DNA of 49,873 bases from K189A clade bacterium (GTDB lineage: Bacteria > Pseudomonadota > Gammaproteobacteria > Pseudomonadales > Azotimanducaceae). Below, one piece after another: positions 8,042 through 45,592 of this stretch. The stretch covers positions 1 to 49,873 of the forward strand of contig CACOYI010000010.1 in NCBI GenBank assembly GCA_902631405.1, written 5' to 3'. The translations under genes and the position numbers were made by a program. Below the pieces are notes generated by a model. That model was not told the DNA's origin. It saw only the letters and a program-made list of their open reading frames with translations, and ran no database searches. The first letter of the stretch is position 1. Each line of letters begins with the position of its first letter.

Positions 8042-8848
8042 TTATTGATTTTCATCAAAAAAGAAACAAATTGCTCTGACTTCGATACTCTCTCTGGGGG
8101 TTACATTTGCACCTAGAATCGTCTGATCATCAAATGCACTATGCAGCGTTGGCACAAAAGGACTCTCGGACGAGTCATAGGTTTTGAACATTACCAATTC
8201 CTCTCTGTTCATTTTCGGGTAGTAATACCAGTGATGGGATTCCTTGTGGCTGGACTGAAAGATTTCAACCTGAAAACCCTCACCACTGCCGTAGTTATGC
8301 AAGTCGGTTGGGATTAATTCTTCCTCCGAGACCGTCCTCGAATCACACAGAGCCAGCGGCGCATCCACACAATCTTTGTCAAAACGTCGCCAAAGGTTAT
8401 AAACAGCGACCCGATCAGGTTTCGGATTTGCCTGACCGATTAAAGGTTCTATCGTATCCAGAAATTGAGGAGTGAAGTCGTTGTGAACCAACCTGTGAGC
8501 ACCTAGTCTTTTTCCAGACTGCGCCTCAGCTTCATTTCGTGTGATATGGGAGACAATGTGTACGGTGGAAGCATCGGTCTGTTGTTTTACTAGTTCAGCC
8601 ATTTCTGGATAGTAAGTTTCCATGACTGCCTGATCATCATAGAAGTCATCGACACTGGATACATGTTCTATGAGCTTGAACCCGGACTCTTTTAGGCTCT
8701 GATTGGTGCCTCGGGCGTTAGAGACTTTCTTTATAAAAGATTGATGGTCTGGACGATCAGGGTCCGGCTCAACTAATCCAAACGCTGGTTTCGGTTCATT
8801 CTCTCTTAGTGGTTTGCGATAAAAAAACTCCGCACTCACAGTATCCAT
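8042..8848 (-). CDS. CmcJ/NvfI-type oxidoreductase
   Basis: This 268-aa protein resembles the CmcJ/NvfI family, non-heme iron-type oxygenases that include cephem 7-methoxylase subunit CmcJ and fungal NvfI. Family marks are an H-x-D pair in VHNDFT (122-126), YNLWRRF (150-156), PLALCDSRTV (164-173), HWYYYPKMNREELVMFKTYDS (206-226), a distal histidine in LHSAFDD (236) and the closing PRESIEVRAICFF. The longer frame begins at 8902. I prefer the ATG at 8848 because AGGAGGAAGAG lies just upstream and this start leaves a 17-nt gap to the preceding gene instead of an overlap. It is the third gene of the UGSC operon and likely oxidises a small organic acid or ester product; the substrate is unknown. 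Confidence 0.85.
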   Translation of the reverse strand: MDTVSAEFFYRKPLRENEPKPAFGLVEPDPDRPDHQSFIKKVSNARGTNQSLKESGFKLIEHVSSVDDFYDDQAVMETYYPEMAELVKQQTDASTVHIVSHITRNEAEAQSGKRLGAHRLVHNDFTPQFLDTIEPLIGQANPKPDRVAVYNLWRRFDKDCVDAPLALCDSRTVSEEELIPTDLHNYGSGEGFQVEIFQSSHKESHHWYYYPKMNREELVMFKTYDSSESPFVPTLHSAFDDQTILGANVTPRESIEVRAICFFFDENQ

Positions 8849-8865
8849 ACGCTCTCTTCCTCCTA

Positions 8866-9945
8866 TCAAGCTGAGGCGCCGGCTAGGCCAGGCACTTCGC
8901 AAAACTGATCCATTTCTATTTTCACGCTAACCGGACAATTAAAATGAGCCGCTCCGCCCCAGGACGGCATAACCATTGAATACAAACCGCTCCCGCCCGC
9001 TACCATAATTAAAATATTCTCAGGTTTAGGAAATGCCGTGTAGGTATCGCCTTTGAATCGGCTACCGAACTCACCGCCATAACGATTATGAAGCTCCGTG
9101 GGAAGATGAGTCAGTTCCCATAGCCTTTTTGCTGTCGATTCTCTTGAGAAATTCGACCTCTTGAGGACCTCTGCATGTTTAGGACCTAGCACAACCAGAG
9201 CACTTCCCGACGTCAATACAGCGTTATTTGTCGCGATATTCGCAAGCCCCTGCGATAGCACATATAAGAGTTTCTCCGCATCTTCCGGGTCATCAGCATT
9301 GTCACTATAAATAACAGAATGAGGCGCCTCACATCCGATTAAAGTGACGACACTATCCTCGGCATCAAAACCTTGACTTACATGCAGTGGTGGAAAGGGT
9401 GAGTCCTCTTCGGCTTCTGCTAAGCAGTAGGTAAATTTTCCAGGGTGCCCTAATAGAGCCATATCCGATATGCCTGGTCTACCGCCTCCAATATTGATCA
9501 TGCAAAGCCGTAAAGCCCTACCAATGCTCGCGTTTGCTCTGTGGCCCGGTCCCAGCGCTCCATATCCAGAGGCCACTGGACCACAACTATGCCTTGCCTC
9601 ACCGTTGACAATAATTAAAGGTGCCGTGCAATGAGTCGTCGCCTGAAGCTCCCTAAGATCAAATTCCGGTTGAACCGCAGCCTTAACCGCCGCGATTACA
9701 ATGGGCATATAATCCGGTAGACAACCTGCCATCACAGCGGCTACGCAAACTTTTTCGATGGTCGCCACGCCCATCCCTGGGCCCATTTCGCCCAGCACCA
9801 TATCGCCATCCAATCCGGTAGCTAAAATCAATCGCTCGACACGCTCTTGTGTGGGAATGACAACTGGAAGCCCATCGGTGCATCCCATCTCATGGAGCTT
9901 CTCTAGTGCGAGTTCCTCTGTCTCTGCCTCCAGAAAATCAGGCAT
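8866..9945 (-). CDS. Conserved protein coupled to the UGSC selenoprotein
   Basis: This 359-aa protein has no signal peptide or membrane helix. I recognise it as a recurring partner type but cannot name an activity. Notable segments are MGCTDGLPVVIPT (20-32), the glycine-rich EMGPGMGVATIEKV (53-66), AVMAGCLPDYMP (70-81), TTHCTAPLIIVNGEARHSCG (103-122), GPGHRANASIGRALRL (132-147), NIGGGRPG (151-158) and HPGKFTYCLAEAEEDSPF (167-184). Several cysteines (21, 75, 106, 121, 174) lie in conserved-looking blocks and could serve redox or metal chemistry with the selenoprotein. A longer frame starts at 10020. The ATG at 9945 is preferred because GGAGAAG precedes it and it overlaps the UGSC stop by 8 nt, implying stoichiometric coupling. 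Confidence 0.75.
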   Translation of the reverse strand: MPDFLEAETEELALEKLHEMGCTDGLPVVIPTQERVERLILATGLDGDMVLGEMGPGMGVATIEKVCVAAVMAGCLPDYMPIVIAAVKAAVQPEFDLRELQATTHCTAPLIIVNGEARHSCGPVASGYGALGPGHRANASIGRALRLCMINIGGGRPGISDMALLGHPGKFTYCLAEAEEDSPFPPLHVSQGFDAEDSVVTLIGCEAPHSVIYSDNADDPEDAEKLLYVLSQGLANIATNNAVLTSGSALVVLGPKHAEVLKRSNFSRESTAKRLWELTHLPTELHNRYGGEFGSRFKGDTYTAFPKPENILIMVAGGSGLYSMVMPSWGGAAHFNCPVSVKIEMDQFCEVPGLAGASA

Positions 9946-10474
9946 CTGCGAACTTCTCCAAAATCTCGTCAACGATTCCATCCGCAACCTCAGTGATTCT
10001 AGCCTCGCCAGTACCCGCAACAGGATGTGGTAATTTTAGTCTGGGTACACTTGTCATTCCGACTGAAGCGGCAACAAAATCTCCCTGATTCCAGAAGTCC
10101 TCGGTGACAAGTGAGATAGAGGGTATTCCCTCTCTGGCAATATTTACGCCGTCACGCACGGTGCCGGTAGTACAACTGCCTCAATGGCCGTACGCAGCTA
10201 TCGCCACCTGACATGTTGCTTTGATTTCTTTAAGTAATTCCTTACTCGCTGGAACGCCGGCGTTTCCTTTATTCCAGAATTTTGTGCTCAACTTAGGAAG
10301 TTTTTTAACCAACGCTTCACCAACCTTCTTCACAAAATTCTCTGAATCCGGAAATCCATTAGCTAGCAATGCAACGGTGATATTCTCCCCTTCGTTTTCA
10401 CCAATATCGTAGGACAGTTTATAAAGCTCGTCTTCAACGGCTGTTTCCGCCTCCGGATTATGAAACTGAATCAT
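9938..10474 (-). CDS. UGSC-motif selenoprotein with in-frame TGA (Sec) at 10181-10183
   Basis: A conventional reading stops after 97 residues at a TGA and reopens in the same frame. Read through, it is one 178-aa protein. The TGA is codon 98 and sits in A-A-Y-G-H-U-G-S-C-T-T-G-T-V-R-D-G-V, the signature of the UGSC family, where the first position is Sec or Cys. The 97 residues before (LLANGFPDSENFVKKVGEAL, VPASKELLKEI) and 80 after (IPSISLVTEDFW, MTSVPRLKLPHPVAGTG) both look like real folded protein. The start has a strong site (GGAGGGAGGAAG), and the true stop overlaps the next gene. The likely role is thiol/selenol redox catalysis, with U98 and C101 as a redox pair; the reaction is unknown. 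Sec machinery (selA, selB, selC) is not in the window. Standard gene callers would split or truncate this gene. Confidence 0.87.
10136..10165 (-). promoter_or_regulatory. Candidate bacterial SECIS hairpin for the UGA at 10181-10183
   Basis: In the mRNA, 19 nt after the UGA, CCGU (10158-10161) pairs with ACGG (10149-10152) around a GCGUG loop whose first base is G. GGCA (10162-10165) can pair with UGCC (10136-10139) as an asymmetric outer stem. A small stem-loop GGCAGU/ACUACC directly follows the UGA. A short stem with G at the start of the apical loop about 16-37 nt past UGA fits the loose bacterial SECIS pattern. No folding energy was computed. Confidence 0.4.
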
Positions 10475-10564
10475 CTTCCTCCCTCCCTATATCGTATTAC
10501 TCAAGCTTACAGGTTCTTCTAGTGAGTGCTCAATATACTGTCTTTTAACCTCATAGCTCTTCGC

Positions 10565-39106: not shown

Positions 39107-42100
39107 TTAGTGCTTCGTCGCATCAAGTGGATAGGCGTCGTAAATGTTTTTAACTTCATCGCCATCGACGTCCGTATGGTCGAAAATTCTTAAAATATCG
39201 TTGTACGAGCCCACTAACGTCCGGTCATCACCGGTCTTCGTTTTGTCGCCAACGAGTCTGCCACCGACATAATCGTAATCCATATAATAATTTTGAGAAA
39301 TCATCAAAGCGCCATCCACTGCGCCAATCAGCTCTACATCTCTCCAAAACGCGATTCCACAATCTGTATAATCGCCATCATAGTCGTAATCGCGTAGGGA
39401 ACATCCTATTGCCGAAATAAAATTGCCGGCACGACTCCATGAATAGTCTCTATAGAACCATCCATCGTTAGTGCGTGCATGGTTGTTGCCGCCCCCAATA
39501 TAAAGTTCCGAGAAAGACGCAAAATTACGCATCGTGCCGTCCGAATTATATACGAAGGCAAAATATCCTGTTGGATCTGGATTTTTCTGGTAAAGAGGAT
39601 TCGCGCCTGTATTTAGCAAGTCTTTTCCAAAAAAGGCCGACATATCAACATCGTTTGCCTCTTGAGGGATAGCGTAGGTATATTTCGAGATAATCGTGCC
39701 ACCATCAGCAGAAATACCCTTTGCGTGAATTCCCATAATGTTATCGTCGATGTGATATCTGCCAACGATTACTCTCGCAGCATTATCATCAAAAACGATA
39801 ACGATCGAGCTAGCCTGATTTTTACTCCACGAAAATGTTCTATTGCTCCGTATAGTTTTTCCAGTTCCGTCAGCCTCAAACTCAAACAGGCCGAAAGCCA
39901 AAGCCTTAGTCTCATCAACAGAACCACTCACACTTCGGTCAAATCTAAGATCTGCTGGTAACGCCCACCTTTTTGTTAATTCATCACTCGTAAAAGGCTT
40001 TAGTTGGTCCCCTTCAAACTCATACCATGTCTCTGTCGAAAAGGTGGTTGTATCGGTTTTCACTGGTAGGCTTGGATCGGCAACGAAGCTTGTATCAACT
40101 AAATAGGTCTTAATGGTCCGAGAACTGTACAACTGATATATCCCGCTTGACTGCGAAACTAACCAATAGGAGTAGTCAGTCCGAGATTGCGTCTCCGCCT
40201 GCACAAATCCAGAACCATCTTCCCCGAACTGGGCTTCCCAAACTTCGGTATTGAGATTAGAGAGGGAAGAAGAAGACTCTAGGGTGTAATAGAAAAGATA
40301 AGAAGAGGTACCATCTGTGACATTTTCCAGCATAAGTTGATTATCGGCGACTCTCCAGGTCCCAGTCTCTTCGTTCTCGTCAAACCAATCGTTTATTTTG
40401 ACGGTTTTATCCGACTCGAGTGAAATCAGGGTCCCCGATCTGAACGCATCGAAGGTTAAATCGGATCTCGTTAACTCCGATATGGTTATAAATTCGCTTG
40501 GCCATTGAGATATATCGATCGGTTTGGCGGCAGAGATGGAATCATCGAGCGGGAAGGCGTCCAGAGGTGATGCATCATCCGCATCCAGAGTGCCGTCGCC
40601 ATCATCATCCGTGTCTGTGTTATTACCGACACCATCCATATCGGTATCAAGCGTCTCAGAACCATCGTTTGGAAACGGATCTGAATTATCTCCGACACCA
40701 TCTGAGTCCGAATCTATAGTCTCAGTAGCATCTAGAGGAAACGCATCTGATGCATCGACCACCCCATCGCCATCGTCGTCTGTATCAGCCGTATTTCCAA
40801 TACCATCCAAATCCGTATCAATCGTTTCACTGGAATCATTTGGAAATAAATCAGCAAAGTCTGCAACGCCATCGTTATCGGCGTCAGTAAGAACCGATCC
40901 GGTGCCATCATCCGAGATTGTCACGCGTATCAGGGGATCGCGAAGGGACGCAGTCGAGGAACTGAGGAGTATGCTGAACTCCTCGGAGTTTTCGCATAAA
41001 GCCGCATCTTTCATTACAGGTACTTGAATAGTAGCTCTCGATTGTCCATTGACCGTTTGGATATCAGCTGCACTTATCGTCCCGGAAACAGAAGTGAAAT
41101 CTGTACCCATCGTCGCCGAGTTACTTATCGTTTTATAGGTGACTGATATGTCAGGCGCCGAATGACTGAACGAGAGCGTTGCGTTTGCAGAGCTTGATTT
41201 TTCGGAGACTGTTAGGTCGTTCCCGTAAATAACTGGTGCGGGATCCTTAGCAACAGAAAATGTAGTTCTGATTAAGTTAAACTGCTGGCCATCTGGCGTC
41301 GAGAATTTCGGATTCGTGTAGGGTTCAGCACTCGAGAATTCAAACTCCATCGAATAATCCCCAGCGGTGAAAAAATCAGCAAGCTCTGGCGTATTCGCTG
41401 CGATATTCTTTGATATAAAATCCATAAGCTTCAAATCAAGAGAGGCCGGCCTCGAAATCCCGTACTCCGAAATTCTTAGAACACTGTCCCCATCAGTGTT
41501 CCAAGAGCTTGAAATAGCGGTTCCATTTGTAGATGTATAAACGAGATTGTGCGCACCCTCTCGTGACACTAGAAACAGCCCGTTCTCGTTCGCAACCCAA
41601 GTGAGATAAATGCTTGCTGTTAGTGCTCTTTCGCCTGGCTGTCTAGAGTAATCTGAACCCTCAAAAAGCCGCACCTCTAAGTTCCCTAAATTGCCATCAG
41701 TTTGCGTTGTTGGGAGGCCCTTGATTGGAACACTCAACTCAGGGGCCTTACCGCCGCTGCCCCTCAACATGGCGTTTAGATTATCCATGTCCAATGCCAT
41801 TGGACCAAAATCAGCTGTCACCTCGGCGTTTGTCACTGACATGGTGGCCTGATAATGAGCAGGAGTGGATTCGTTTCCGTCTAGATAATCGGTCACGCTC
41901 ACAACATTAGAAACCAGACTGAAAACCAGGTCGCTGCTGGAACTGGGCGTTGCTGATAGGGCGCCTGCCAAAGGAGGCGTACAGTAGTAAGCACGGTCGT
42001 TTGGTTTCGCATCAAGCAGATCCGGCACTCCGTCACCATCGATATCAAGATCGAGGCTCATTCCAAGAGCTTGACAGGCAGCATCACAACTATCCGGTCG

Positions 42101-45100
42101 ACCGTCCCCATCAAAGTCAGTCAATGCGCCCAAGCTCACCGATGGATAACCATCGTCAACATCGGCAACCTTGTCTGAGTCACTATCCACGGATAATTGG
42201 TAAACCGAAACTCTACCCGCTTCTGTTAATTCACCTGATGTTTCATACCGCGCCGAAACGGCCAAAACACCCCCATCTGAGCTCAGTCTATTGGAGAACA
42301 TGAAAGCTCTATCCCCAGTGCCAGTGAACTTACTTAGAATCTCCCAACTCGAGCCGTTCCACATGAACAACGAAACGCTGCCGCTGAACGTATAAACGTC
42401 GCTCAGATCCTCGAGCAAAGCTGATACCGCTAATATGTTTCCTGTATCGTCAAGATTCAGGTCACCACCAAACCGATCTCCCTCAGCTCCCTTTAGTGTT
42501 GCTCCTCGTTGAGTCCACGAACTATCAACAAAATCGTAAATTTTCAATTGACCCGCGTCTTCCCCAGCGGAGTCGTTTTTGTGTGCACCATGGGCTAGCA
42601 CATCACCTGTTTTGTTTAATGCAACATAGAACGCCTCGTCAAATTCGGCATCACCAAAAATTGTTTGGCCAATGGTACTCCAGACATCGTTCACCAAGCG
42701 CCAAGTCTTCACACTCCCAGTCAGCAGATTATCAGCGTTCGGATCTAATCCACCTCCGATCGCCACGGTAGAGCCATCACCGCTAATATCGATATCGACC
42801 CCGTAAGAAGATGCACTGGTAGCGGACAGCGGATCCCCTTTCTGGGTCCAGTTATTCCCATCCCAATCATAAACATACGCCGTCGAGTTCGCGTAGTAAT
42901 AGGCGCAAGGCGTGCTGGGACAGACGACGCTTCCATTTTGTGCAAAAACTAACCTGTTCCCGCTATCATCCAGAACGACCTTTTTGCCGAAACGGGTTCC
43001 AGGCTCAGAGGCCTGAATGGTACTCCCCATTTGGGACCATGTGGTGCCATCCCACTTATAAACACGAACCTGCCCTTCTTCACCCTCTACCTCGCGCCCA
43101 TCAGCGAAGCTCGCCCCGACCGCGAGGATATCGCCCGTTTTATTGAGAGCGACACTGATTCCAAAATTTGAATCAGCCAAACCATTGGTGAGCTCACCCC
43201 CCAACTTTTCCCAAGCGCCACTGGCATATTGATACACCTGGACGCTGCCTTGCGTGACCGCATCATCAGTTGCTCCTCCATCACCCGGCGAACCAATCGC
43301 GAGAATATCTCCGGCGCCGTTGAGCGCGATTTTACCGGACCGGACTCCTGATTCATCTCCAAAAAGGTTCTCGCCTTTTTGGGTCATTGCCAAGCGACTC
43401 GTGCTAGAAGTGGCCAGTGAACCATAGGTCGTCTCTAACAGATCTGAAAACCCGTCTGAATCGTCGTCGGTATCAGCATTGTTTCCTAAGCCATCGCCAT
43501 CGGTATCCAAACTTTCAGCCGCGTCATTTGGAAACACATCTGAATTATCGCCAACACCATCACCATCCGTATCAATCGTCTCGGTTGCCAAATTCGGGAA
43601 AATATCAGCGTTGTCGCCAACACCATCACCATCACTGTCGAGTGTTTCAGTCGCATCGTTAGGAAATGCATCCGCATTATCCCCGACACCGTCAGAATCA
43701 GTATCTTCTGTCTCTGACGCTAGAGATGGAAAAGCATCAGCGTTGTCGCCGACACCATCCCCATCAGTGTCAAGTGTCTCAGCAGGATCATTCGGAAAGG
43801 CGTCACTGGCATCAAAAATGCCATCTCCATCAGAATCAACAAATGCGGCAATCGAATCATTGAGCCCACCACTGGCACTAGCTTGCGTGTCTACGTCGGA
43901 CGAGGTGGTGAAGGTGTCTGTCGTGATTTCGCCGGTGACCAACTGCTCAGCCAAAGTCGAGGTGTTGGTCACGATTCCAGCGATATCCTCTGCCGAAGAG
44001 GCGGTTGTCAGAACCGACACGCCAGCACTCGCCACCTGAGTTTTGATTAATGCATTCGTCTCGGCAGCTGTTGCCGCAATCGCGCTAATGTTCTCAGTCT
44101 GTGTACTATCCAGTCCTGTGGAGGTTATTAGTTCTTGTGTTTCTTTAATCTGCAGAATTGCCGTTACTATTGCATCGTTTGTGTCTGAAAGATCTAACGT
44201 ACCAGCCGTTTGCTTAGCTTCTATCTCCGCCACAATCAACGTCGCTGATTCCTCTGCCGTCTCTTTTAATATTTCATTCGTAACCGTGGCATCACCCAGA
44301 TCCACAGTAACAGCGGAAGCGCTGCCCGCTGAAACAACAGCAGCATCAATGGTCTCAACCAATTCTTTGGTGACCGTGCTGGTGATCATGGCTGCACGCT
44401 CAGCAGCACTCTGAACCCCTGAGGTTGTCGTGTCAGTCACAACCGCATCCGCCGTCTGGATCAGATTGGCTATCTGAACCGAGGTGGTCACCACATTATC
44501 GGCAACACTCTCTAACTCCGTAGTGGTAATACCAATACTCTCAGCCAGTGCGGCTGAACTTGCGAATTCACCTGAAGACTCCGTGCTATCCGTTGCCAAC
44601 GCCCAGGGATCAATACTTGTGATCTCATCTGGTGTAACTGTATCTGGGAAACCCAAAGCAATCAGTACCGAAGCCGGATCTGTAGCTACTGAGACAACCG
44701 TACTCAGAGGAGTTACTGCTACCGCTTGAGAAGCATCAGCGGGCACTTCAGCTATCAACGCTAAGCTAGGAAGCTCCTTATTCGTCAGAATGTCAGTGCC
44801 GCCAATGGACAGGACTCTCAACTCAAAGCCTGATTGAGCTTCGGTTTCTGCTAAGGCGTAATAGCCCTGACTGTCTGAACTAACATTTGCCTCATCCGAC
44901 CCACATTCTGAGTCTTCGTTAGTATCCAGACACACTGTGGCATTGGAGAGCGGTGCATCCACTACCCTACCCTCTACGGCATTCGTCACCGTGACAGATA
45001 CATCTTGCGTGACTGTCACTTTGCCGTCATAAGCACCAAGAGTGACCTCATAGACATTATCGCCTGAAGCATCTCCAGGTGCTTCAAAATTAGGCGCCGT

Positions 45101-45502
45101 CTTAAAACTAAGGGGATTGCTCGTGCAGCGACTCGCATTGCAGACACCCAGCTCAAAGAGATCGGAATCTGCTCCACTCTCAATACTGAGAGCTAACGTG
45201 TCATCAGAGTCTTCATCATCAGCCTCAATTGTTCCTGCAGCCGTGTTGTTCTCGACCACAAAGAAAGAGCTGCTGCTAGAGAAGGCAGGTTGGGAGTTGC
45301 TGGGTGCTGTACCCCCCGATGTGCCGCTTCCGCCAGTCGAACCGCTGCCACTTGAACTGCCAGAGCCACCTGTAGAACCTGTCCCTCCAGAAGAGCCTGA
45401 ACCACCAGAAGCACCTCCAGATGCGGAAGAGCCACCCCCGCCGCCACCTCCACAAGAACCGAGTAAAAACACGAGGATCGAAAATAAAACAGCTCGCGAC
45501 AT
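39107..45502 (-). CDS. Giant mosaic lipoprotein with thrombospondin-3, FG-GAP and Calx-beta modules
   Basis: At 2131 aa this is the largest gene. The signal ends in LLGSC (lipobox Cys17), followed by a long Gly/Ser linker. A cadherin-like segment comes next (PAFSSSSSFFVVENNTAAG). A carboxypeptidase-like region holds VVDAPLSNATVCLDTNEDSECG. A long helical Thr/Ala-rich stretch leads to about six thrombospondin type-3 calcium repeats (DTDGDGVGDNADAFPNDA). FG-GAP-like propeller repeats follow (about 700-1115; KIALNGAGDILAIGSP). A Calx-beta module is at about 1424-1532. A second set of D-x-D repeats and a C-terminal unknown domain ending in DHTDVDGDEVKNIYDAYPLD complete it. It is a surface adhesin- or binding-type protein that needs calcium. 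TTG 45505 opens the frame; ATG 45502 fits AAAGGGGG better. Confidence 0.88.
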   Translation of the reverse strand: MSRAVLFSILVFLLGSCGGGGGGGSSASGGASGGSGSSGGTGSTGGSGSSSGSGSTGGSGTSGGTAPSNSQPAFSSSSSFFVVENNTAAGTIEADDEDSDDTLALSIESGADSDLFELGVCNASRCTSNPLSFKTAPNFEAPGDASGDNVYEVTLGAYDGKVTVTQDVSVTVTNAVEGRVVDAPLSNATVCLDTNEDSECGSDEANVSSDSQGYYALAETEAQSGFELRVLSIGGTDILTNKELPSLALIAEVPADASQAVAVTPLSTVVSVATDPASVLIALGFPDTVTPDEITSIDPWALATDSTESSGEFASSAALAESIGITTTELESVADNVVTTSVQIANLIQTADAVVTDTTTSGVQSAAERAAMITSTVTKELVETIDAAVVSAGSASAVTVDLGDATVTNEILKETAEESATLIVAEIEAKQTAGTLDLSDTNDAIVTAILQIKETQELITSTGLDSTQTENISAIAATAAETNALIKTQVASAGVSVLTTASSAEDIAGIVTNTSTLAEQLVTGEITTDTFTTSSDVDTQASASGGLNDSIAAFVDSDGDGIFDASDAFPNDPAETLDTDGDGVGDNADAFPSLASETEDTDSDGVGDNADAFPNDATETLDSDGDGVGDNADIFPNLATETIDTDGDGVGDNSDVFPNDAAESLDTDGDGLGNNADTDDDSDGFSDLLETTYGSLATSSTSRLAMTQKGENLFGDESGVRSGKIALNGAGDILAIGSPGDGGATDDAVTQGSVQVYQYASGAWEKLGGELTNGLADSNFGISVALNKTGDILAVGASFADGREVEGEEGQVRVYKWDGTTWSQMGSTIQASEPGTRFGKKVVLDDSGNRLVFAQNGSVVCPSTPCAYYYANSTAYVYDWDGNNWTQKGDPLSATSASSYGVDIDISGDGSTVAIGGGLDPNADNLLTGSVKTWRLVNDVWSTIGQTIFGDAEFDEAFYVALNKTGDVLAHGAHKNDSAGEDAGQLKIYDFVDSSWTQRGATLKGAEGDRFGGDLNLDDTGNILAVSALLEDLSDVYTFSGSVSLFMWNGSSWEILSKFTGTGDRAFMFSNRLSSDGGVLAVSARYETSGELTEAGRVSVYQLSVDSDSDKVADVDDGYPSVSLGALTDFDGDGRPDSCDAACQALGMSLDLDIDGDGVPDLLDAKPNDRAYYCTPPLAGALSATPSSSSDLVFSLVSNVVSVTDYLDGNESTPAHYQATMSVTNAEVTADFGPMALDMDNLNAMLRGSGGKAPELSVPIKGLPTTQTDGNLGNLEVRLFEGSDYSRQPGERALTASIYLTWVANENGLFLVSREGAHNLVYTSTNGTAISSSWNTDGDSVLRISEYGISRPASLDLKLMDFISKNIAANTPELADFFTAGDYSMEFEFSSAEPYTNPKFSTPDGQQFNLIRTTFSVAKDPAPVIYGNDLTVSEKSSSANATLSFSHSAPDISVTYKTISNSATMGTDFTSVSGTISAADIQTVNGQSRATIQVPVMKDAALCENSEEFSILLSSSTASLRDPLIRVTISDDGTGSVLTDADNDGVADFADLFPNDSSETIDTDLDGIGNTADTDDDGDGVVDASDAFPLDATETIDSDSDGVGDNSDPFPNDGSETLDTDMDGVGNNTDTDDDGDGTLDADDASPLDAFPLDDSISAAKPIDISQWPSEFITISELTRSDLTFDAFRSGTLISLESDKTVKINDWFDENEETGTWRVADNQLMLENVTDGTSSYLFYYTLESSSSLSNLNTEVWEAQFGEDGSGFVQAETQSRTDYSYWLVSQSSGIYQLYSSRTIKTYLVDTSFVADPSLPVKTDTTTFSTETWYEFEGDQLKPFTSDELTKRWALPADLRFDRSVSGSVDETKALAFGLFEFEADGTGKTIRSNRTFSWSKNQASSIVIVFDDNAARVIVGRYHIDDNIMGIHAKGISADGGTIISKYTYAIPQEANDVDMSAFFGKDLLNTGANPLYQKNPDPTGYFAFVYNSDGTMRNFASFSELYIGGGNNHARTNDGWFYRDYSWSRAGNFISAIGCSLRDYDYDGDYTDCGIAFWRDVELIGAVDGALMISQNYYMDYDYVGGRLVGDKTKTGDDRTLVGSYNDILRIFDHTDVDGDEVKNIYDAYPLDATKH
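40550..40890 (-). repeat. Second block of calcium-binding D-x-D-x-D-G repeats
   Basis: Coding repeats of the thrombospondin-3 type within the giant lipoprotein. They are less regular than the first block: DADNDGVADFADLFPND, DTDLDGIGNTADTDDDGDGV, DSDSDGVGDNSDPFPND and DTDMDGVGNNTDTDDDGDG. Confidence 0.85.
43447..43840 (-). repeat. Tandem 22-residue thrombospondin type-3 repeats
   Basis: About six near-identical 66-nt units encode ETLDTDGDGVGDNADAFPSLAS-type repeats within the giant lipoprotein. Each unit offers Asp ligands for calcium. The repeats also create long spurious frames on the opposite strand, which are not genes. Confidence 0.9.
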
Positions 45503-45592
45503 CAATTGCCCCCTTTAACCGAATGCTCCCCCGTGGCCTCCACACACGGGAAGAAACCAAGGCATGTTACATCGGGAGATGATCGATCGCCT

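Follow-up and report, generated by a model that had tools for sequence, protein, structure and literature searches.

The family of UGSC-containing proteins was reported in the 2008 GOS survey, with 255 sequences, among the most abundant selenoprotein families of the ocean (PMC2398784). Its function is given as unknown in the available excerpt of a 2026 review (PMC13188914), and the accessible portions of the literature, including these two sources and PMC9312934, PMC9402790, PMC7539508, PMC5029168, PMC5330540, and PMC7435645, hold neither a function for UGSC nor a tie between UGSC and GrdB. Two described groups of selenoproteins share the UxxC motif of this family, the thioredoxin-fold selenoproteins and the GrdB/PrdB proteins (PF07355) of glycine and D-proline reductase. 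According to the same excerpt of the review, GrdB is a glycine-binding protein that releases ammonia, and its homologue PrdB is one of the subunits of D-proline reductase (PMC13188914). The gene described here is a new member of the UGSC family, which has been in print since 2008. New here are a constant partner gene, found in both gene orders and once fused to UGSC, a predicted fold other than that of thioredoxin, and a testable GrdB/PrdB-like mechanism.

The window, a stretch of 49,873 nucleotides from one contig of a K189A clade bacterium (assembly GCA_902631405.1), carries the UGSC gene on its minus strand:

9938..10474, minus: putative UGSC-family selenoprotein gene, 178 aa, read as a single polypeptide across an in-frame TGA (PF24696 profile match for the whole and for each half)
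10181..10183, minus: TGA codon 98, probably selenocysteine (Sec), with Cys101 completing UxxC (TGA at the motif in 61/61 loci; Cys homologues)
10482..10487, minus: Shine-Dalgarno-like GGGAGG ahead of the UGSC ATG (found by eye)

The initial annotation had described two minus-strand frames of 97 and 73 aa lying in one phase and parted by TGA 10181-10183, and the sequence confirms it. The 97-aa ATG frame (10474-10181) closes at this TGA, and the 73-aa frame (10159-9938) starts at a GTG seven sense codons past it. Read-through yields a product of 178 aa with U98 and C101 in the motif H-U-G-S-C-T-T-G, in which 80 further codons follow codon 98 before the terminal stop, also a TGA (9940-9938). This geometry alone, without homology, is not significant, as seven TGA codons in the window, including that of UGSC, are flanked on either side by 60 or more open codons in some frame. 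The only one of the other six that was inspected, TGA 44037, is antisense to a 2132-aa ORF; this ORF (39107-45505, minus) is rich in repeats, and the TGA-split plus-strand frames opposite to it span 43479-44414. Read-through in UGSC is placed above chance by homology to PF24696 together with the retention of the TGA in relatives. The joined protein reaches 140 bits against this profile (E 1.1e-40), and its N- and C-terminal halves reach 45 bits (E 1.9e-11) and 57 bits (E 3.2e-15), all three exceeding the Pfam gathering cut-off of 25 bits, so that the assignment to the UGSC family made in the initial annotation stands. Its further claim, that the active site would be lost in standard annotation, seems plausible inasmuch as the joined protein scores 104.1 bits against NF041046, below the curated equivalog cut-off of 125. 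However, this cut-off was missed by nine of the ten UGSC proteins tried (101.3-120.4 bits), only L061, from the clade designated B below, exceeding it (164.1 bits). Since joined UGSC proteins can miss the NF041046 cut-off, such split genes may be left without a name.

The retention of the TGA was followed with PF24696 in 58 genomes, comprising that of the window, 36 others of its genus, and 21 of its order. The family was found in 37 of them, 36 of which belong to the genus (37 genomes in total), and each of the 77 matches contains exactly one in-frame stop, always TGA. Sixty-one loci were read closely, namely the window and 60 loci fetched out of the 76 other places matched by PF24696. The TGA stands immediately ahead of G-S-C in 60 of them, including the window; in the remaining one, L116, it stands at the same place, and the next two codons contain N. 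These loci form three clades: A (22 loci including the window, plus L116), B (31), and C (7). A third Cys is present in clades B and C (UGSCTTC / UGSCSTC), in contrast to the window's clade, which has Gly at this position (UGSCTTG). Apart from this Gly and the score below the NF041046 cut-off, the protein resembles the described family (PF24696; NF041046) in its profile match over the Pfam cut-off, its motif, its UxxC, and its exchange of Sec for Cys.

This exchange had been anticipated in the initial annotation, which looked for Cys-containing homologues aligned at position 98 and held homologues with neither U nor C there to be evidence against Sec. Homologues of the first kind were found in Pseudonocardia (L125), in a Clostridiales MAG (L126), and in a genome of the window's phylum (L131), and none of the second kind occurs among the 36 rows of the A3 alignment, all of which have U or C in the residue-98 column. 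Of 398 genomes sampled across the phylum, among them that of the window, five contain the family. The UGSC gene thus shows the pattern by which bacterial selenoproteins are recognised, an in-frame UGA that orthologues retain and for which certain homologues have Cys. Both the placement of Sec at position 98 and the pairing of Sec98 with Cys101, for which U-G-S-C was read in the window and its relatives, are upheld by these comparisons. One further locus, L130, holds a UGSC gene (about 1640-1740, minus) with Cys in the motif and a TGA at a position occupied by Trp in clade A relatives; its N-terminal part was matched separately, as L133, with 22.9 bits, below the cut-off, and judging from its sequence the gene looks damaged or misassembled.

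The codons that follow the TGA are expected to hold the recoding signal, and two overlapping features were assigned to this region:

10148..10168, minus: putative bacterial SECIS (bSECIS), comprising codons +5 to +11 past the TGA, whose synonymous sites are frozen (codon comparison, 22 clade A loci)
10149..10167, minus: putative bSECIS hairpin with a stem of 3+3 bp, one G.A mismatch, and an apical loop CGUGC starting 20 nt past the UGA (54-nt fold)

At codons +5 to +11, the modal residue is encoded by its modal codon in 95-100% of cases across the 22 clade A loci (with this residue present at +5 in 17 of 22), whereas 54 other conserved codons average 54%. Across codons +1 to +13, the mean modal-codon frequency is 0.87, 0.90, and 0.80 in clades A, B, and C, versus 0.54, 0.54, and 0.61 at the other conserved codons of the gene (Mann-Whitney p 1.0e-5, 2.1e-6, and 8.0e-3, restricted to codons with a residue conservation of 90% or more and leaving out L116). 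Codons +5 to +11 form the centre of the freeze, as a bSECIS would require.

According to the available excerpt of the review, a bSECIS has a loop of 3-9 nt with G in one of its first two places, located 16-37 nt from the UGA, and an upper stem of 4-16 bp (PMC13188914). The hairpin of the window shows the loop CGUGC at 20 nt on 6 bp with one mismatch in the 54-nt fold, where it also forms in three of the four clade relatives folded. In a shorter fold of 27 nt, the loop CGUGC begins at nt 24, counted from the U of UGA, in 18 of the 22 clade A loci, the window being among the four that prefer another hairpin, and a loop GUU or GUG begins at nt 23 in all 38 loci of clades B and C. GU lies in the loop in 21/21 distinct Sec sequences folded versus 0/3 Cys sequences. 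Relative to synonymous recodings, the mean z for hairpin stability is -1.89 in clade B, -1.70 in clade C, and -1.62 in the Cys controls (n=3), and the clade A hairpin has no extra stability (-0.58); none of the eight folds tested beat dinucleotide shuffles (z from -0.95 to 0.47). The codon freeze is hence better evidence for a SECIS than folding energy, which gave little for clade A. Taking the conservation of the TGA and of these codons together, UGA98 is almost certainly decoded as Sec, through a bSECIS that would lie in codons +5 to +11.

Decoding of this kind depends on selenium genes, and the initial annotation had named a host without selA, selB, and selC as a finding against Sec. Taken formally, this is what the host assembly returned, as none of selA, selB, selC (tRNA-Sec), and selD is over its cut-off in this 73%-complete assembly (1.6 Mb, 82 contigs). 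Weaker matches below the cut-offs (at best 40.3 bits for tRNA-Sec, 166.1 for selB, and 52.7 for selD) were discounted, similar ones being present in 14/14 control genomes. Within the genus, SelA is present in 29 of 37 genomes, and tRNA-Sec and selD are over their cut-offs in 24 and 28, respectively. Among the eight genomes without SelA, G007 has tRNA-Sec and G010, G019, G031, and G032 have selD, so that the absence of SelA from these five looks like a gap; the other three, G000, G014, and G033, lack SelA, tRNA-Sec, and selD alike and are 73%, 64%, and 58% complete. The relative nearest to the window by its partner gene (G035, 83% identity) has SelA and tRNA-Sec, with selD not over the cut-off. 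SelA is accompanied there by what we take to be genes for a SelB-like protein, a 3-hydroxyisobutyrate-dehydrogenase-like protein, citrate synthase (gltA), and sdhA and sdhB. In the host assembly, nothing matches the gltA of this locus, but 56 of the 58 genomes have a match to it at any similarity. An orthologue of it, defined by at least 70% identity and counting partial ones, is absent from six of the eight genus genomes without SelA versus three of the 29 with SelA (Fisher p 8.5e-4). The host also carries two other genes, both GrdB/PrdB-like (PF07355), that read through a TGA:

L158, TGA at 1312, minus: PF07355 gene of the host genome, its frame running through the TGA into U-P-V-C
L159, TGA at 1730, plus: PF07355 gene of the host genome, its frame running through the TGA into U-P-V-C

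The TGA is present at the U-P-V-C site in 20/20 loci of the PF07355 family fetched. Matches to this family occur in 34 of the 58 genomes, all within the window's genus, which may, judging from such genes, have a sizeable selenoproteome. The sel genes of the genus, the missing gltA, and the two PF07355 genes with TGA at their Sec site make decoding of Sec in the host very likely, and the incompleteness of the assembly, the loss of gltA, and these two genes argue that the absent sel genes are likely an assembly gap.

Directly downstream of the UGSC gene lies the second gene considered here, to which the initial annotation made no reference and which opens at ATG 9945 within the end of the first:

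8866..9945, minus: partner gene, 359 aa, no family match, proposed second subunit (adjacent to UGSC in 60/61 loci)
9938..9945, minus: overlap of 8 bases between the partner start and the UGSC stop (seen in the sequence)

The overlap would be in keeping with translational coupling. Neither the partner nor its 31 aligned relatives, chance rows apart, match any family of Pfam or NCBIfam, and its predicted model (pLDDT 84.2) has no match in the PDB at E < 0.001 in a fold search (best E 1.8e-3, TM 0.24); its Cys75 is nearly invariant. A relative of the partner adjoins UGSC in 60 of the 61 loci, the window counted, the exception being L064, whose contig stops about 300 bases beyond UGSC. The same holds for 7/7 more distant loci examined (L125-L128 and L130-L132). 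The partner follows UGSC in clade A and precedes it in clades B and C, and since both orders are found, the link between the two genes outlived the change in order. In L126, a single TGA-free frame of 580 codons encodes UGSC and partner as a fusion. This resembles the fusion of UGSC with a second conserved domain, "Unknown_1", mentioned in the available portion of the 2008 paper (PMC2398784), and "Unknown_1" may be the partner, although this is a guess. Distances between loci for UGSC and for the partner correlate within clades A, B, and C (r 0.89, 0.88, and 0.99; 49 loci without ambiguous residues), a correlation to which shared ancestry contributes and which is thus confounded by species relatedness. 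The near-constant adjacency suggests that UGSC and its partner make up a two-part enzyme.

The AlphaFold model of UGSC (pLDDT 94.4, pTM 0.89) alternates strands (E) and helices (H) in the order E33-38 H42-58 E63-68 H78-87 E90-96 H99-114 E119-124 H125-137 E145-148 H157-177. Its predicted site has Sec98 after strand 90-96 and ahead of helix 99-114, with Cys101 in the first turn of this helix. The top Foldseek matches in the PDB are azoreductases, flavodiiron proteins, and other Rossmann/flavodoxin-like proteins, with TM of about 0.5, and no thioredoxin is among the best 50 of 1643 matches. The order of the thioredoxin fold is beta-alpha-beta-alpha-beta-beta-alpha, which the predicted order does not follow. 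The fold of UGSC is therefore predicted by this model to be Rossmann-type and not that of thioredoxin, from which the thioredoxin-fold selenoproteins differ accordingly despite the shared UxxC. For the same reasons, the guess of a "Trx-like fold" in the accessible text of the 2008 paper (PMC2398784) is not supported. By sequence, searches of the PDB with the UGSC and partner profiles gave nothing better than E 0.59.

A comparison of the UGSC profile with the PF07355-like set points remotely to GrdB and PrdB. The hhalign score is 33.4 (probability 37%) in an alignment that pairs the two Sec columns, versus at most 18.8 in 60 column permutations and 16.6 for the reversed profile. Masking of Sec and Cys gives a score of 31.4 (probability 26%), with the Sec columns two apart, and 60 permutations reach at most 19.6. 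Twenty-five further gene families of these loci, a set that includes the partner and was not selected for Rossmann folds, score 22.7 at best. Even at a limit of E 1, the PF07355 profile itself matches none of the 36 sequences in A3. The likeness extends to the third Cys, as UxxCxxC, the GrdB motif in the excerpted review (PMC13188914), is found in clades B (31/31) and C (7/7), in contrast to the window, where UGSCTTG lacks it. Unlike the members of the PF07355-like set, with 237-426 aa (some being cut by locus ends), UGSC has about 175 aa, and the partner is unrelated to this set (hhalign 0.3%). The profile comparison suggests, short of proof, a remote kinship of UGSC with the Sec domain of GrdB/PrdB.

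From these observations, a redox enzyme of two subunits with Sec98 at its site is the likely product of the locus, the exact chemistry being left out of this estimate. UGSC would be its catalytic subunit and the 359-aa downstream product its likely substrate-binding subunit; adjacency, both gene orders, and fusion are observed, and they make a two-subunit enzyme of UGSC and partner very probable. The selenolate of Sec98 would attack a small substrate bound to the partner and cleave it reductively, as in GrdB/PrdB, and Cys101 would resolve the intermediate to a selenenyl-sulfide, which the thiol system of the cell would reduce. This chemistry, including the resolution by Cys101, is proposed by analogy and tentatively, its chances falling somewhat short of even. 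Still more speculative is the possibility that UGSC and its partner represent an undescribed branch of GrdB/PrdB-type Sec reductases outside amino-acid fermentation, in bacteria that carry genes of the TCA cycle and for TonB receptors, the fold of the substrate-binding subunit being absent from the PDB. The partner, the fusion, and the remote tie to GrdB/PrdB offer a handle for the function of UGSC in an abundant ocean family.

Three other explanations have to be weighed against this enzyme. If the TGA were a true stop, the gene would be decaying or its halves would be separate proteins, in a host unable to make Sec; the lack of sel genes over the cut-offs in the host assembly and the in-frame GTG past the TGA would fit such a reading. 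Nevertheless, a TGA kept in 61/61 loci and the freeze of synonymous sites speak against it, as do the two other genes with TGA at a Sec site in the host and the absence from the MAG of gltA as well, a gene found beside selA in relatives, all of which leaves a true stop hardly credible.

UGSC might, on the other hand, be a stand-alone thiol-disulfide oxidoreductase or peroxidase of the thioredoxin type, its neighbour merely being a pathway gene. The UxxC motif agrees with this, but the confident Rossmann/flavodoxin-like model (pLDDT 94) without thioredoxins among its best 50 of 1643 PDB matches does not, and neither does a partner that is missing only where a contig end cuts the locus and that can be fused; a stand-alone protein of this type is thus unlikely. 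Sec98 and Cys101 could also bind a soft metal or a selenium species without any reduction of substrate, since a UxxC pair could bind soft metals. Metal-binding Sec is, moreover, allowed for other families in the available excerpt of the 2026 review (PMC13188914). However, metal-resistance families account for 0/10 of the annotated neighbour-family representatives, and the clade B neighbours include a TauD-type dioxygenase, an acyl-CoA dehydrogenase, an epoxide hydrolase, and an MFS transporter, making this role quite improbable. The enzyme of two subunits with Sec98 accordingly remains the preferred reading.

As the neighbouring genes differ between clades, their use as a clue to the substrate was dropped. 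In the window, the gene directly after the partner (8042-8902, minus) encodes an oxidoreductase of the CmcJ/NvfI family (NF041278, 204 bits, cut-off 80). A tblastn search at 1e-6 gave no match to it in the remaining 60 loci, several of them truncated by contig ends. Among the more distant loci, L132 carries two partner-like frames in tandem next to a single UGSC gene.
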